A DNA stretch of 64,000 nt, taken from contig DAHUXD010000014.1 in the NCBI GenBank assembly GCA_027307335.1, positions 124,001 through 188,000 on the forward strand, in the 5' to 3' direction. Source of the DNA: Acidobacteriota bacterium (lineage in GTDB: Bacteria; Acidobacteriota; Thermoanaerobaculia; UBA5066; Gp7-AA6). The notes beneath the pieces are model-generated. The model had not been told where the DNA came from. It saw only the letters and a list, made by a program, of their open reading frames with translations, and ran no database searches. Position 1 is the stretch's first letter. Each line of letters opens with the position of its first letter. Both the position numbers and the translations under genes were made by a program. This document shows, piece by piece, positions 2,443-56,854 of the stretch.

Positions 2443-4295
2443 CAGGTCCTCGGCAAAACGTCCAGCGTCAGGCGCGCCGAGCCGGTCAGGGGAACGGGCT
2501 GCTCCACCGACTCCGACTGCAACCGGACGAAAGCGAGATCGGGCGTGCCGTCGCCCGGGCCGCGGTCGTGGAGGATCGCCGCGCGGCTCGGCGGCAGCGC
2601 CGCGAGCGCCTCCCCGTTGACGAGGGCGCCGGGCGCGGCGCGGTACGCGATGAGGTTCAGGGTGTTCGCGGGACGCACGCGGCCCAGGAACTCGAGAACC
2701 TGATCGAGCGAGTGCGGGTCGGGCGGGAAGAGCGAGAGGTCGTACGCGGTGGCGGCGTTGCCGTCGCCGACGAAGAGCGTCATCGGACCCGGCGGCGCGT
2801 CGTCCGGCACCTTCGCCGAGAGCACCACGCGCCGCGGGCCGCCGCGGAAGTCCTCCAGGTCGACCCAGATCGGCACGGTGTCGCCGGGCCGCACGCGCTC
2901 CTTCTGCGCCTCGACGTGGATCAGGCGCGCGCTCTGGAGCCGGTCGGAGTGGGAGATCTCCACGTCGACGCCGCGGATCGAGAGGTCGCGGAATTCGTTG
3001 GCCATGAGGAAATTCGTGAGCACCGCGAGAGAGGCGACGGCGTCGTCCTTCGCCGAGAGTCCCGAGAACACCGAGTCCCAGCGCACGGGTTTGTCCGACG
3101 TCTCGATCGAGGACTTCCAGACGATCGTCCGCTCGCCGGCGCGCTTCTCGAGGGTCGTCAGGACGTTGTCGACCGCGACCGCGAGCAGGATCGGCGTGAG
3201 CATCGCGTTGTGCACGACCTCGAAGCGGAAGGTTTGCGTGGGCAGGTCGTCGGACTTCATGCGGATCGTGATCGGCACCATCTTCGGCGCCTCGCCGAAG
3301 CTGCCGAGGATGCCCGTCGAGCGGTCCTGGGAGATCGAGCCGAGCACCGGACCGCTCGTCGCGAACTTGAACGAACGGTAGAGCGAGGGCAGCACGGTCA
3401 ACACGTCGGCGCTCGCCATCGGCATGTCCACGGGACCCATCGACAGAAACGGGTGGCCGAACGCGAGCACCGAGTTGCCGTCCACCCAGGTGACGGTTCC
3501 GGTCGCCGAGAGCACCATGTCGCCGGACAGGAGCACGGCCGCGACGGCCGAGCCCGGCTCGAGCCGCGCGGGTGGCGCGGGCGGGCCGATCGGCGAGCGC
3601 CCCGCCGATGGGGGCGCCGAAGCGCCGGAAGGCGCCACGAGCCAGTTCGCGGCCTCGGAGACTTCGCCGAACACCCGGCCCGGAAGAAGCGTCCCCGAGA
3701 GCGAGACCGGAAGCGGCAGAGGCGACGGGCCGGTGCTCGCCGGCTGCGCCTTGAGCGGCGCCAGCAGCGACTCGAACGGCGCGGCGAAGGTGCGGTCGCG
3801 GAACGCCGACACGAACGCGGCCGCTCGCGTGGCAGCGCCGCCGATCGGCACCGGCGGCGCGGCGGGCGCCTTGCGGATGTCGAGCATGCTCTGGATCGGG
3901 GTGATCCCGCAGATCGGCTCGCGCGAGAACGGCCAGCCGTACGCGAGCGCGCCGACGAGACGCCCGTCGACGTAGATCGGGCTGCCGCTCATGCCGGCGA
4001 TGATGCCGGTCTTGTCGAGCATGTCCCCGAGGACGCGCGCGAGGATCAGGTCCTGCTTCGGCGCGTAGCTCTTCAGCAGGCCGACGACTTCGATGTCGAA
4101 ACGCTGCACGCCCTTTCCATCGCCGAGATCGGAGAAGCCGTAGCCCTTCATCCCCGGCGCGAGCTCGCTCGCCGGCATGATGTCGGTCGGTCCCGCGGAG
4201 AGAGGCGGCGCCGCGACGAGCAGAGCGGCCGCCGCCGCGATGGAAAGCAGGAAACGCCTCACGGGTGCCACAACGCCTGCGGCGAGATGCTCCAT
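2439..4295 (-). CDS. Secreted SpoIVB-type peptidase S55-like protein, blocks in permuted order
   Basis: The 618-residue product has an N-terminal signal peptide; an alternative GTG start at 4262 gives a tidier one. Residues 63-140 match the C-terminal half of the S55 peptidase domain: 'VQRFDIEVV', then 'TGIIAGMSGSPIYVDG' with presumed nucleophile Ser-103, then 'GITPIQSML'. Residues 264-345 match the N-terminal half: 'ATGTVTWVDGNSVLAFGHPF' with presumed catalytic His-281, then 'GSISQDRSTGILG'. In Bacillus SpoIVB the His block precedes the Ser block, so the order here is reversed. No PDZ domain is recognised, and residues 350-618 are unassigned. Sporulation is not implied; a periplasmic serine peptidase or a non-catalytic relative are both possible. 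Confidence 0.8.
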   Translation of the reverse strand: MEHLAAGVVAPVRRFLLSIAAAAALLVAAPPLSAGPTDIMPASELAPGMKGYGFSDLGDGKGVQRFDIEVVGLLKSYAPKQDLILARVLGDMLDKTGIIAGMSGSPIYVDGRLVGALAYGWPFSREPICGITPIQSMLDIRKAPAAPPVPIGGAATRAAAFVSAFRDRTFAAPFESLLAPLKAQPASTGPSPLPLPVSLSGTLLPGRVFGEVSEAANWLVAPSGASAPPSAGRSPIGPPAPPARLEPGSAVAAVLLSGDMVLSATGTVTWVDGNSVLAFGHPFLSMGPVDMPMASADVLTVLPSLYRSFKFATSGPVLGSISQDRSTGILGSFGEAPKMVPITIRMKSDDLPTQTFRFEVVHNAMLTPILLAVAVDNVLTTLEKRAGERTIVWKSSIETSDKPVRWDSVFSGLSAKDDAVASLAVLTNFLMANEFRDLSIRGVDVEISHSDRLQSARLIHVEAQKERVRPGDTVPIWVDLEDFRGGPRRVVLSAKVPDDAPPGPMTLFVGDGNAATAYDLSLFPPDPHSLDQVLEFLGRVRPANTLNLIAYRAAPGALVNGEALAALPPSRAAILHDRGPGDGTPDLAFVRLQSESVEQPVPLTGSARLTLDVLPRTW

Positions 4296-9262: not shown

Positions 9263-9514
9263 ATGGCCAACATCAAGTCCGCCGAGAAGCGCAATCGCCA
9301 GTCCGTCAAGAAGCGCGCGCGCAACCGCACCCGGGTGTCGCGCCTCCGCAGCGCCGTCAAGAAGTACGGTCAGACCGAGGCCGGGAAGCGCGGCGAGGCG
9401 CTTCCTGCCACGCATTCGGAGATCGACCGCGCGCTCGCCAAGGGCGTGATCCACCGCAACGCTGCGGCGCGGTACAAGAGCCGCCTGGCGAAGAAGGCGG
9501 GGGCGGGTAAGTAG
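9263..9514 (+). CDS. rpsT: 30S ribosomal protein bS20
   Basis: The 83-residue basic protein starts 'MANIKSAEKRNRQSVKKRAR' and keeps the S20 pattern of helical Lys/Arg-rich segments, including 'KGVIHRNAAARYKSRLAKK'. It binds 16S rRNA early in small-subunit assembly. An AGGAGAAG site lies upstream of the ATG. It follows the tol genes by 90 bases and may share their transcript. Confidence 0.96.
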   Translation: MANIKSAEKRNRQSVKKRARNRTRVSRLRSAVKKYGQTEAGKRGEALPATHSEIDRALAKGVIHRNAAARYKSRLAKKAGAGK

Positions 9515-9622
9515 GAGCACCCCGGCGGAGTCACGGTCGGAGGAGGACCGGCCCGCGAGTCCCGCGGCGAACTAGTCGCTGACGGAAAGCAGCGGCCCGC
9601 AAGTCGGGCCGAGCGCTTCGAT

Positions 9623-9711
9623 GGGGTCAGGCCTGATGTTTTCGGCGCTCTTTGCCCTTCGCGGGGATACCACTTTCGCGTCGTCGCTCCGAAAACACCA
9701 TGCCTGACCCC
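9623..9711. repeat. REPIN-like inverted repeat with GGGGTCAGGC arms
   Basis: The rpsT-lptE gap (9515-9761) contains two 23-base arms, 9623-9645 and 9689-9711, which are inverted copies of each other with two mismatches, separated by 43 bases. Each outer end is GGGGTCAGGC and each inner end is GTTTTCGG. The same outer decamer forms a perfect palindrome at 56776-56799. Paired short palindromes of this sort resemble REP doublets mobilised by RAYT transposases in other bacteria. No transposase is present in the window, and the element lies between convergent genes. Confidence 0.6.
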
Positions 9712-9761
9712 GAGTCCGGCATCCGGTTTACGCCGACTCGGCACCTCGGGCCTGGATCCGC

Positions 9762-10295
9762 CTAGAACCCTTCCAGCAGGCTCGTCACTAGGCTCTGGGC
9801 GAAGCGATCCGCGACGCGGTCGATCGCGTCGTTGATGAGATCCGTGTACGACGCGGTCGTCGCCGAGAACTGGTAATTGTCCCGGAACGTGAAGGCGGGA
9901 TTCTCCCAGAGCGGCTTGTCGTCCGGCAGCGTTTTGAGCGAGACGTTCGCCGTCACCTGCACCTGGTAGTCGGTGGCGCGCCCCTGGGCATCGAAGGCGA
10001 CCGGATAGAGATTGAACGCCAGAACGGTCCCGGCGAGCACGGCGTTGGCGCCGTCCGCGCCCGCCTGCACCTTGAACCGGCCCCGCGACACGAGCTCGCG
10101 GTTGATCGCGGCCGAGAACCGCTGCTCGAGCTCGACCTGGGGCGTGCGGTTCTCGAGCGTCGTGAACTGCACGACCTTGATCGACTCCGGGAGCGACGAG
10201 CCCCGGCCGACGAGCGTGTAGCCGCAGGACACCGTGAGCAGCGTCAGCCCCGCGGCGGCGAGTCGGCGGAGGATGGACGCCCGGCGGCGGCTCAC
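9762..10295 (-). CDS. lptE: LptE-like LPS-assembly lipoprotein
   Basis: The 177-residue product starts at a GTG overlapping the leuS stop (GTGA). A signal peptide ends at 'LLTVSC', followed by '[18 protein letters not shown]', '[20 protein letters not shown]' and a C-terminal helix, the usual layout of LptE-family proteins. LptE plugs the LptD barrel that delivers LPS to the cell surface. lptD is not in this window. The leuS-lptE pairing is common in diderms and supports the call. Confidence 0.85.
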
Positions 10296-30716: not shown

Positions 30717-31097
30717 ATGAAGACCGTCGCCACCGAAGGAGCTCCCCGCGCGATCGGACCGTACTCGCAGGCGATCGCGGAGGGCGGTTTCCTGTTTCTT
30801 TCCGGGCAGATACCCCTCGACCCGGCGACCGGCGAGCTGGTCTCCGGCGGCCTCGCGGCCGGCGTCGAGCGCGTCTTCGACAATCTGCAAGCCATTCTGA
30901 AGTCGGAGGGACTCGGGTTGGACGACGTCGTGCGGACGACCGTTTACCTCCTGCGCATATCGGATTTCGCGGAGATGAACGGGATCTATGCCCGCCGCTT
31001 CGGAAACCACCGTCCCGCGCGCTCGACCGTCGCCGTCGCCGAGCTGCCGAAGGGCGCCGCGATCGAGATCGACGCGATCGCCCGGCTCCGAGCCTGA
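30717..31097 (+). CDS. ridA: RidA-family enamine/imine deaminase
   Basis: RidA hydrolyses reactive enamines/imines released by PLP enzymes such as threonine dehydratase. The 126-residue product keeps the whole signature: 'GPYSQAI', 'FLSGQIPLDPATGELV', the substrate-binding Arg-102 in 'RPARSTVAVAELPKGAAIEI' and Glu-117. An AAGAGG site precedes the ATG. It is convergent with the DUF4149 gene, and a hairpin joins their two stop codons. Confidence 0.95.
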   Translation: MKTVATEGAPRAIGPYSQAIAEGGFLFLSGQIPLDPATGELVSGGLAAGVERVFDNLQAILKSEGLGLDDVVRTTVYLLRISDFAEMNGIYARRFGNHRPARSTVAVAELPKGAAIEIDAIARLRA

Positions 31098-31113
31098 CCC
31101 CGGCCCGTCAGGG
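31092..31113. terminator. Hairpin spanning the ridA and DUF4149 stop codons
   Basis: CCTGAC (31093-31098) and GTCAGG (31107-31112) form a stem with an 8-base GC loop. The ridA TGA is in one arm and the opposite gene's stop in the other. GCCTGACCCC at 31092-31101 is identical to the half-site of the palindrome at 56776-56799. There is no U-tract, so termination is only a suggestion. Confidence 0.35.
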
Positions 31114-52880: not shown

Positions 52881-55224
52881 CGCCCGGCTCCCGCGGGGCG
52901 ATCCGGAACGTCCGCTCGATCACGGTCGTGCCTCCGTCCCGCGCGACGAACGTCACCGTCAGGCGGTGCGTTCCCGGAGCGAGATCGGGAATGCGGAAGG
53001 CGAACCCGCCCCGGTCCGACTCCGTGTACTCCGGGTAGAGGCGCTGGAGTCCCTCGCGCGGGAGGTGCGCGGCCACGGGAACGGGGCCGGCCTCGGTCCG
53101 GGCGCGCACGTCGGCGATTCCGGAATCGTCGAGCGTCCACCCGAACGCCCAGTCGCCGGGCGCGACGGTCCGCGCCTCGCGCGGCGCGTCGAGGTAGCCG
53201 AACGGCGGCGCCAGGCGCATCCCGTCGGCGCGCACCCGGGCGATCCGCAAATCGAGAGCCGTTCGAGACCGGGCGAGATCGTCCCCGCGCTCCCGCAGCC
53301 CGCCCGTCTCCGTCGAACCCGCGGGAACGAACACGAAGTCCCGGTCGTCGCCGTGCGGGAAGCTCCGCACCAGTTCGAGCCCGCCGGAGGCCATGGCGCG
53401 GTCGAGCACATCCGCGTAGGCGGCCACGAAGATGCCCTCGCGGACGTGGGGGTGATAGACGAGGACGCACGCCCCGAGCTCCCCCATCTGCGCCCAGACC
53501 GAGTCGGGGATCGGCCGCCGCTCCAGCGCGAGCTGGAGCCGGCGGTACGGCTCGGGGAAAAAGCCCGAGTAGCCATTGATCAGGTCCCGTCCGTGCTGCG
53601 CCTGGCGAAAGACGTAATCGAAGTCGTAGAGAGTGCCCAGCGGCCATTCGACCACGGCATCGGGCAGGCTCTGCGACGCGAGCCAGCGATACACGGGCGG
53701 CGCCGCGGAGTCGACGGGATGCAACGCGAGGGGAAACGCCCGGTATTCGAACGCGAGAGCGGCGACCGCGGCCGCGGTCCACGCCCTTCGGGCTTCCGGC
53801 GCGCGCCGCCGGAGGAGCTCGGCGAGTCCCCACGCCGCGAGCACGGCGAGCGCGAGGTGGAACAGGACGATGCCGCGGGCCGGAGAGCGGATCGAACGAA
53901 AGACCGCGCCGAAGGACTGGAAGAGAAAGCGGTAGAAGGGAGTGTGGCCGCCGAGCGCGATGACGACGCCGAGCATCCCCACGGCGGCGAAGAGCGCCAC
54001 GTGCGGCGGCACGCGAGACCGCCGGAGCCAATCGCCGGCGTTCGCCCACGACGAACGGCCCGGGAAGGCGACGGCGAGGCGCACGGCGGCGAGAGCCGTC
54101 ACCCAGACGACGGCGCGGCCCGGGTCGCCGGCCGAGATCCGACCGAGGCGAAGCCCGGGATGCACGCTGGCCGCGATCCAGAGGACCGCCGAGAGGACGA
54201 TCAGGGCGTCCAGGACGTGGACCGTGACGCGGCGGCGACGGGGCCGGGGCGCGACCGCGGCTTCCGGCGACCGCCGGACCGCGACGAGCGCGACCACCGC
54301 GAGCCCGAGCGCGGCGAGCCCCGGAAAGAAGTCGCCCTCGGCGGCTCGCCAGTCCCGCGTGATCGGCCCCCAGAAGCGATTGAGGATTCCCGCCGAGAGA
54401 AAGTCACTCCACCTCCCGGAGTAGAAGAGCATCTCCGTGAAGTAGCGGCGCATCCCGTACAGCCGCTCGGCACGGCGGTACGCGAGGGCGAACGGGACAA
54501 ACGCCAGCCCCCCGGCGACCGCGGCCGCCGCCGCCGCGAGGACCCGCGCGCGCACCGCCCCGCCTCTTTCGACCGCGTAGAAGCCGAGGACGAGCGCCAC
54601 GAGGAGCCCGGAGAAGAGACCGTAATGCACGTTGGAAAGGACATTCCACGCGAAGAACAGCGCGAAGAGCGCCAGGTCCCGCCGCCCTCCGAGGTCGAGA
54701 TAGCGGAGCAGGAAGAGCAACAGCAGGCACAGGAACCCGCCCCACTGGTGCTGCAGATGCGACAGCTGAGAGAACCGCCAGGGCACGAAGGCGTAGACGA
54801 GGCCGGCGACGACCGAGGCGAGCGGGTCGCCGGACACGTACCGCGCGAGCGCCCACGCGGCGAGCGCCGAGAGGAAGATTCCGAGCAGGAGGAGGAAGTT
54901 GAAATTGACGAGGGGCGACATGCCGACCGCGAGGAGCGGCCATCCGAAGAGGGAGACGCCCCACAGGTTCTCCGAGAACGCGAGCACGTCGTGCGCCGGA
55001 TGAAAGAAGTTGAGGTCGAAGAGGCGCCCTGGATCGTGCGTCGACTGGTGGTAGTCCCACTGGAGAATCCGGGCGTTCAGCTTGGCGTCCCAGATGTCGG
55101 CCATCGCGTCGCCGACGTGGAGCGCCTGAGGCCACGTCATCAGGACCGTCGCGGCCAGGAAGAAGAGGGCCGCGAGCGCCGTTTCGCGTCCGGGTCGGGA
55201 GGCGCCGCCGCCTCCGCGGCTCAC
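52837..55224 (-). CDS. Large polytopic membrane protein with C-terminal soluble domain (GT-C/YfhO-like)
   Basis: The 795-residue product has about twelve membrane segments over residues 15-500 and a C-terminal soluble portion (about 510-795). The latter contains 'PDAVVEWPLGTLYDFDYVF' and 'LINGYSGFFPEPYRRLQ', seen in predicted GT-C/YfhO-type proteins, and ends with a beta-rich domain ('PDLAPGTHRLTVTFVARDGG'). 'LHVGDAMADIWDAKLNARIL' after TM1 may be the acidic active-site loop. A role in glycan or glycolipid modification is plausible only. The GTG start overlaps the preceding gene's stop. Confidence 0.75.
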   Translation of the reverse strand: MSRGGGGASRPGRETALAALFFLAATVLMTWPQALHVGDAMADIWDAKLNARILQWDYHQSTHDPGRLFDLNFFHPAHDVLAFSENLWGVSLFGWPLLAVGMSPLVNFNFLLLLGIFLSALAAWALARYVSGDPLASVVAGLVYAFVPWRFSQLSHLQHQWGGFLCLLLLFLLRYLDLGGRRDLALFALFFAWNVLSNVHYGLFSGLLVALVLGFYAVERGGAVRARVLAAAAAAVAGGLAFVPFALAYRRAERLYGMRRYFTEMLFYSGRWSDFLSAGILNRFWGPITRDWRAAEGDFFPGLAALGLAVVALVAVRRSPEAAVAPRPRRRRVTVHVLDALIVLSAVLWIAASVHPGLRLGRISAGDPGRAVVWVTALAAVRLAVAFPGRSSWANAGDWLRRSRVPPHVALFAAVGMLGVVIALGGHTPFYRFLFQSFGAVFRSIRSPARGIVLFHLALAVLAAWGLAELLRRRAPEARRAWTAAAVAALAFEYRAFPLALHPVDSAAPPVYRWLASQSLPDAVVEWPLGTLYDFDYVFRQAQHGRDLINGYSGFFPEPYRRLQLALERRPIPDSVWAQMGELGACVLVYHPHVREGIFVAAYADVLDRAMASGGLELVRSFPHGDDRDFVFVPAGSTETGGLRERGDDLARSRTALDLRIARVRADGMRLAPPFGYLDAPREARTVAPGDWAFGWTLDDSGIADVRARTEAGPVPVAAHLPREGLQRLYPEYTESDRGGFAFRIPDLAPGTHRLTVTFVARDGGTTVIERTFRIAPREPGVTESPQPTAGERRP

Positions 55225-56773: not shown

Positions 56774-56775
56774 GC

Positions 56776-56799
56776 GGGGTCAGGCTTCAGCCTGACCCC
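56776..56799. repeat. Perfect 24-base palindrome of the GGGGTCAGGC family
   Basis: Two bases after the acyl-CoA dehydrogenase stop, 11-base arms beginning GGGGTCAGGCT and ending AGCCTGACCCC are separated by two bases. The decamer equals the outer ends of the inverted repeat at 9623-9711. No U-run follows, so it is not a standard terminator. Confidence 0.7.
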
Positions 56800-56854
56800 G
56801 GTGCCCCGTCGCCCCAGACGGAGTGCCAAATCGAGGTGCGACAATCGCTTGCGC

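Follow-up and report, generated by a model that had tools for sequence, protein, structure and literature searches.

The closest described relatives of the element studied here are the TIRYT systems, in which a Y1 tyrosine transposase is encoded between long terminal inverted repeats (TIRs) with the sequence GGGGWSAS (Di Nocera et al. 2013, PMC3733652; this and the other papers below are cited for the sections accessible to us). Free TIR repeats are described there as singles, dimers and clusters, and Acidobacteria form one transposase group. Subclass 2.1 of the TnpA-REP proteins combines a Y1 domain with a C-terminal extension resembling helix-turn-helix (HTH) or Bac_DnaA_C domains, and its authors regard it as probably identical with TIRYT (Quentin et al. 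2018, PMC6006769, in excerpt). REPINs (Bertels and Rainey 2011, PMC3116915, in excerpt), in turn, are inverted, non-autonomous doublets whose movement is attributed to a Y1 transposase acting in trans. Here we analyzed a window of 64,000 nucleotides (nt) of an Acidobacteriota bacterium (contig DAHUXD010000014.1, positions 124,001 to 188,000), which contains an inverted repeat at 9623-9711, between the convergent genes rpsT and lptE. A preliminary description had taken this repeat for REPIN-like and had predicted a transposase elsewhere in the genome. We conclude that it is a degraded copy from a family of TIR doublets of the TIRYT kind, and that this family is probably an orphan. The repeat is likely a non-autonomous TIR doublet, i.e., two transposon ends in inverted orientation that enclose no gene.

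The window sequence contains the inverted repeat exactly as first described, with 23-nt arms, two mismatches and a 43-nt loop, and the repeat is real and beyond chance. Its left arm (9623-9645, plus strand, tip GGGGTCAGGC) reads GGGGTCAGGCCTGATGTTTTCGG, and the right arm (9689-9711, minus strand), with the reverse complement GGGGTCAGGCATGGTGTTTTCGG, is identical to it at 21 of 23 positions. Directly outside the arms, pairing does not continue. Alignment with the other copies of its family, six in all and termed family C below, identified the loop (9646-9688) as the internal sequence of this family, and GGAGCGACGACGCG, read on the minus strand, starts within the arm and continues into the loop. 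Within the window this is the sole inverted repeat with 23-nt arms, at most two mismatches and a loop of 3-60 nt, and none arose in three windows simulated with a first-order Markov model. Both arms carry GGGGTCAG and hence the GGGGWSAS tip typical for TIR repeats of the TIRYT or TIRtron type. In single-strand DNA folding, the element reached z scores of -5.6 and -6.4 for its two strands.

The genome that holds the window comprises 4.37 Mb on 65 contigs. In the window itself, the decamer at the tip showed no excess (8 sites with at most one mismatch versus 7.9 expected), and genome-wide it occurred 41 times versus 17 times for the reversed word, so that the copy number is above this control and the refuting outcome named in the preliminary description did not occur. 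Its significance lies in the paired arrangement, not in the decamer alone. Doublets of the form GGGGTC[A/T]G...C[A/T]GACCCC with gaps of 0-92 nt were found at 53 distinct places, the reversed pattern at none, which also bears out the expected paired spacing; the 53 were pooled from searches giving 16, 27 and 11 places, the last with one place that spans two doublets already counted. Sorted by inner sequence, they comprise 15 A-like doublets (GGGGTCAGGTCTCTGAAAATGTGAC and variants, mostly ~66 nt), 11 of family B (...CTCAAAGGTGATC, ~61 nt), 6 of family C (...GTTTTCGGAGC, ~90 nt, including 9623-9711), 12 of family D (24-nt palindromes) and 9 others. From their sequences, we group these doublets into families that share a tip and differ in the inner part. 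The preliminary description had linked the repeat to a decamer palindrome 47 kb away, and this palindrome is indeed present (GGGGTCAGGCTTCAGCCTGACCCC, 56776-56799, plus strand, 2 nt after a TAA stop). It is one of the 12 24-nt doublets of family D, whereas the repeat belongs to family C, so that the two have a common tip and are members of different families.

Further families with the GGGGTC tip were noted alongside these. Family E is a tandem 60-nt pair (C31:3141-3277), family F consists of paired GGGGTCTGACCCC palindromes (C47:11871-13406), and family G is a single GGGGTCAGGCACCGCGTTTTG doublet (C20:145757-145943). A partnerless minus-strand GGGGTCAGGC lies at 31092-31101 of the window, and the nearby end of a called gene (31108) is 6 nt away. 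Most family D copies have lopsided flanks, GC on one side and GGTGCCC-like on the other (e.g., window 56774-56806), and the repeated unit is thus probably longer than the palindrome.

A PF01797 search yielded two Y1 transposase genes in the genome, termed C16 and C60, and both proteins score above the cut-off of the NCBIfam model REP_Tyr_transpos. The C16 transposase (L042:6384-7394, 336 aa) has a frame open without stops. It is flanked by GGGGTCAGGTCTCTGAAAGTGTGAC on one side and by two copies of GGGGTCAGGTCTCTGAAAATGTGAC on the other, and GGGGTCAGGTCTCTGAAARTGTGAC stands on both sides of the gene; these arms were also found in family A doublets. The terminal inverted repeats of C16, GGGGTCAGGTCT..., equal the family A arms, so that the genome holds a resident Y1 transposase with flanking TIRs of the same kind, as expected for TIR repeats of the TIRYT or TIRtron type. 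A transposase of the predicted sort thus exists, flanked by this kind of repeat; it carries family A and not family C arms, and the prediction therefore holds in kind. Taken strictly, a TIR family shares its arms with a resident TIRYT, which is true for family A and not for family C.

Residues H73, H75 and Y132 of the C16 protein are invariant in 25 aligned sequences, C16 included; we take the two histidines to be the HUH motif and Y132 to be the catalytic tyrosine. The predicted C16 structure (mean pLDDT 84) matches TnpA-REP 4er8 with an E value of 4.7e-7 and the DNA-binding domain of M. tuberculosis DnaA (3pvp) with 1.5 A over 92 columns (TM 0.84, E 6e-3). In a profile of the 25 sequences, the C-terminal part matches DnaA chains (5.8e-8) and the N-terminal part 4er8 (1.5e-3), and Pfam finds Bac_DnaA_C in 8 of the 25. 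As modeled, the C16 protein fits the definition of a TIRYT, or TnpA-REP subclass 2.1, namely Y1/HUH followed by a putative C-terminal HTH/DnaA_C-like domain.

In other genomes, some doublets match TIRYT ends. C16-like loci were taken from named genomes, and in 31 of the best 80 of 129 we found GGGGTCA[GC] inverted repeats whose arms match and are separated by 0.93-1.57 kb; many of the loci lacking them are cut by contig ends. Our relative set consisted of 59 genomes, none of the same genus as the window. With the genome of the window included, 17 of 60 contained GGGGTCAGN25-55CTGACCCC doublets, and the reversed pattern was present in 1. We then compared the 18 nt past the tip between doublets and one TIRYT locus per genome. 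Arms matched at 0.94-1.0 in G000 (2 doublets), G011, G013 and G034 (best other genome 0.67), and the G034 doublets adjoin the transposase gene. When more doublets were compared, matches at 1.0 were seen for 1 of 11 G012 and 2 of 10 G043 doublets, and by reading the sequences, one G001 doublet also matches TIRYT arms. Most G012 doublets have arms close to those beside a G010 TIRYT (GGGGTCAGGTCTACCATCTACAC). The family relative G002 has a C16-like TIRYT whose frame is interrupted by a single stop (L236, G002:C112:4762-5676) and no GGGGTCAGN25-55CTGACCCC doublets.

The TIRYT arms furthermore contain a tandem heptad. In 31 TIRYT loci, lag-7 identity in the arms was 0.463 versus 0.271 for shuffled arms, with z 14 for all arms and z 9 when only left arms are counted. 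Across 33 loci, with that of the present genome among them, the signal lies beside the tip, positions 12-19 resembling 19-26, and at least 5 of 7 heptad positions match in 19 loci versus 2.3 expected; in these statistics, the two arms of an element are non-independent, as are related loci. In the right arm of family C, GGGGTCAGGTCT-TCGGTTT-TCGGAGC, TCGG recurs at lag 7 in the expected place (4/7), which is part of the reason why we read family C as ends of a lost TIRYT; in the arms at 9623-9711 this repeat is lost. Family C, including the 9623-9711 copy, is probably the orphan of a lost transposase. As candidate DnaA boxes the arms were rejected, not being significantly better than shuffles (z 1.3). 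Co-variation of the arm with the C-terminal domain, beyond that with the N-terminal domain, is too weak to serve as evidence (partial r 0.12 at a permutation p of 0.03, from 527 pairs among 33 loci).

For the strand-level mechanism we draw on analogy to IS608 and TnpA-REP work (PMC8266576, in excerpt); the strand chemistry and the domain roles of TIRYT given in what follows are proposals. The doublet would fold into a long hairpin while the DNA is single-stranded, and its ends would be recognized by a TIRYT-type Y1 (HUH) tyrosine transposase. Of each end, the near-universal tip GGGGTCAGNYCT might be recognized close to the catalytic domain, and the DnaA-like DNA-binding domain at the C-terminus might contact the family-specific inner arm. 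The transposase would then cut and rejoin the strand, and copies arriving elsewhere would survive mainly where genes stay unbroken, often at stop codons.

Family C doublets are embedded in a longer repeat, and the mobile unit could also be this ~190-bp composite of hairpin-rich module and doublet, spread by another recombinase or by inter-repeat recombination with the doublet as a passenger. At our locus the composite spans 9539-9728 (minus strand), with 87% identity over 190 nt to C51:11445-11634, and includes a small hairpin, CGGCCCG-CAAGT-CGGGCCG, at 9593-9611 (plus strand, from sequence and RNA fold). In favor of a mobile composite, each of the six family C doublets is followed by the right, hairpin-rich module, five of them also share a left module (approximately CCGGATGCCG..CTC), and the module occurs at only 7 places at E <1e-14 (next best 0.02), 6 of them with the doublet. 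However, the seventh composite, C5:48627-48761, is a paralogous site without doublet, reading CGGATGCCGTGC directly followed by ATCGAAGCGC versus CGGATGCCGYRCTC, doublet and ATCGAAGCGC in the filled state, and the C20:53782 copy lacks the left module and begins directly with the tip, which lies 2 nt past a stop codon. From these two copies it follows that the parts separate at the doublet edge. Moreover, the family A and B doublets that we read have no common flank like that of family C. We hence consider a mobile composite unlikely, yet it is the alternative that survives best. At L194:4786-4999 (C44:80785-80998), a family C composite is followed by an inverted partial left arm, which results in a larger nested inverted repeat. 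At doublet edges (50-99-nt doublets, families pooled), the sole hint of a target-site motif was a weak preference for T/C at -1 and for A at -2.

Several observations weigh against our reading of the 9623-9711 repeat as a TIR doublet of the TIRYT kind. No sign of present-day movement was seen. The right flank common to all six family C doublets means that the composite, not the doublet, may have moved, and the empty C5 site is not letter-perfect but two nt short, with an extra TC before the tip in filled copies. No TIRYT carrying family C arms was found in this genome, none of the 59 relatives contains the exact arm pattern of this family, and its inner motif is absent from the TIRYT loci retrieved; we therefore speak of a repeat of the TIR/TIRYT kind and not of a TIR of a resident TIRYT. 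Pfam detects neither an HTH domain nor Bac_DnaA_C in the C16 protein itself, and its TIRYT arms are an exception to the heptad (2/7). Among the relatives, the doublets compared were unmatched in G001, G004, G012, G025, G031, G049 and G052, and G043 reached only 0.72. They make up 8 of the 13 genomes besides our own in which a doublet locus was present, G008 and G040 being without a TIRYT arm for comparison. Likewise, 10 of 11 G012 and 8 of 10 G043 doublets are unlike the TIRYT compared. As one TIRYT per genome was compared, unmatched doublets may belong to other TIRYTs or be orphans.

The doublets have a pronounced habit of placement. The intergenic bias that had been expected is evident, as 47 of the 53 are not mostly inside a called gene at a background coding fraction of 0.892; gene calls came from a codon-score caller, not from annotation, and three stop-proximal copies (D and other) inside called genes are excluded from the 47. 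Thirty of the 47 lie within 15 nt of a called-gene stop codon, compared with 9.0% of random intergenic points (A 13/13, B 8/11, D 6/9, F 2/5, C 1/6, E 0/2, G 0/1). Five A-like doublets contain the stop of the entering gene, which is the arm's own TGA, 16 nt in (GGGGTCAGGTCTCTGA). A stop was likewise no more than 15 nt away for 12 of 18 intergenic doublets from two further genomes, at a background of 8.7% (21 doublets on 20 stretches, 3 inside called genes). Stop-codon proximity may result from either targeting or selection. GTAG-footed repetitive extragenic palindromic (REP) sequences show a comparable behavior, as their ends often supply the stop to flanking open reading frames (PMC3733652, in excerpt).

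This habit of the doublets as a set would also suit a host regulatory hairpin in place of mobile DNA, acting as bidirectional terminator, mRNA 3' stabilizer or stop-proximal translation brake; in the accessible part of PMC12306157, E. coli REPs are reported to stall ribosomes when no more than 15 nt separate them from a stop. The position between convergent genes, rpsT (ribosomal protein S20, PF01649, 9263-9514, plus strand) and lptE (PF04390, 9762-10295, minus strand), for which Pfam confirmed the names initially given, and the RNA fold of the gap (z -2.6) are compatible with such a role. In contrast, no intrinsic terminator (short GC hairpin, then a T run) was found in 9300-10000 and no promoter at the locus, and an Rfam scan of the element gave nothing above cut-off, with a single match at E 0.35, far below its cut-off. 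The rpsT-lptE gap of the family members G001 and G002 is without such an element, and sister arms flank a transposase. Moreover, the two neighboring stops lie 108 and 50 nt away from the 9623-9711 copy, which is therefore not stop-proximal and unsuited to a stop-proximal role. We regard a regulatory hairpin as an improbable origin of the repeat, although a regulatory function could be a secondary role.

That the repeat is a true REPIN, i.e., two GTAG-footed REPs mobilized by a REP-associated tyrosine transposase (RAYT), seems highly improbable to us, since its paired inverted layout, the Y1 transposases of the genome and the intergenic bias would suit this identity, but the GTAG foot is absent at arms and flanks, the tips fit the TIR/TIRYT class (GGGGWSAS; PMC3733652, in excerpt), and the genome's GTAG REPs (91 sites versus 3 for the reversed control) are distinct and have their own 154-aa transposase. 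This second transposase, C60, is flanked by GTAGGGGCGGGGCTTGCCCCCGCCC and its partner, and the GTAG sites often form head-to-head pairs. The GTAG population represents true REPINs with their own RAYT, a family separate from the GGGGTC-tipped doublets. GTAG REPs stand beside the C60 RAYT at L041:3411-3435 and 3929-3953 (C60:53410-53434, 53928-53952), the population has two main variants, and none of the GTAG REP sites listed is on the contig of the window.

For the TIR doublets and their TIRYT, we may speculate on a bipartite recognition model, which we put forward tentatively and would not yet favor. TIRYT ends might consist of the near-universal tip GGGGTCA[G/C]NYCT for Y1 and of tandem family-specific heptads at ~12-26, bound by a DnaA-derived domain IV with two domains per end. 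A change of heptad could then found a new doublet family with the tip unchanged. One genome would thus carry several mutually blind families, each orphaned upon loss of its transposase, and survivors would be kept at stop codons as 3' hairpins. The model would also account for several same-tip families in one genome, and TIRYT, a term scarce in the literature searched, would gain concrete recognition rules with a possible site for the DnaA-like domain. Shared tip, tandem heptad and gene-end habit suggest how such elements may be recognized and tolerated.

The question raised by the preliminary description is thereby answered, as the matching kind of transposase exists and is of TIRYT, not REPIN, type, and two systems of Y1 transposase and repeat coexist in one Acidobacteriota genome. 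A literature text search with the tip sequence gave nothing that looks related among the matches listed (title and abstract start). With the REPINs of Bertels and Rainey (PMC3116915, in excerpt), the doublets share the inverted, non-autonomous layout and the Y1 transposase; here, however, they are without GTAG foot, their arms are transposon ends, and a true GTAG population coexists with them. With TnpA-REP subclass 2.1 (PMC6006769, in excerpt), the C16 protein shares the layout of Y1 and DnaA-like C-terminal part; as differences, the heptads are a candidate site here, and the arms are not better DnaA boxes than shuffles. The closest likeness is to TIRs, TIRYT and TIRtrons, with which the present system has in common the TIR-flanked Y1 transposase, the GGGGWSAS tip and the free repeats. 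The TIRYT kind is thus already known. Compared with the accessible sections of PMC3733652, our data differ by several inner-arm families with one tip, one of them matching the resident TIRYT, by heptads in tandem next to the tip, seen in many relatives, by a measured proximity of TIR doublets to stop codons and by an orphan family that is embedded in a composite. In particular, the results on heptads and stop codons go beyond the TIRYT literature, as far as it was accessible, and are the part most worth specialist attention.
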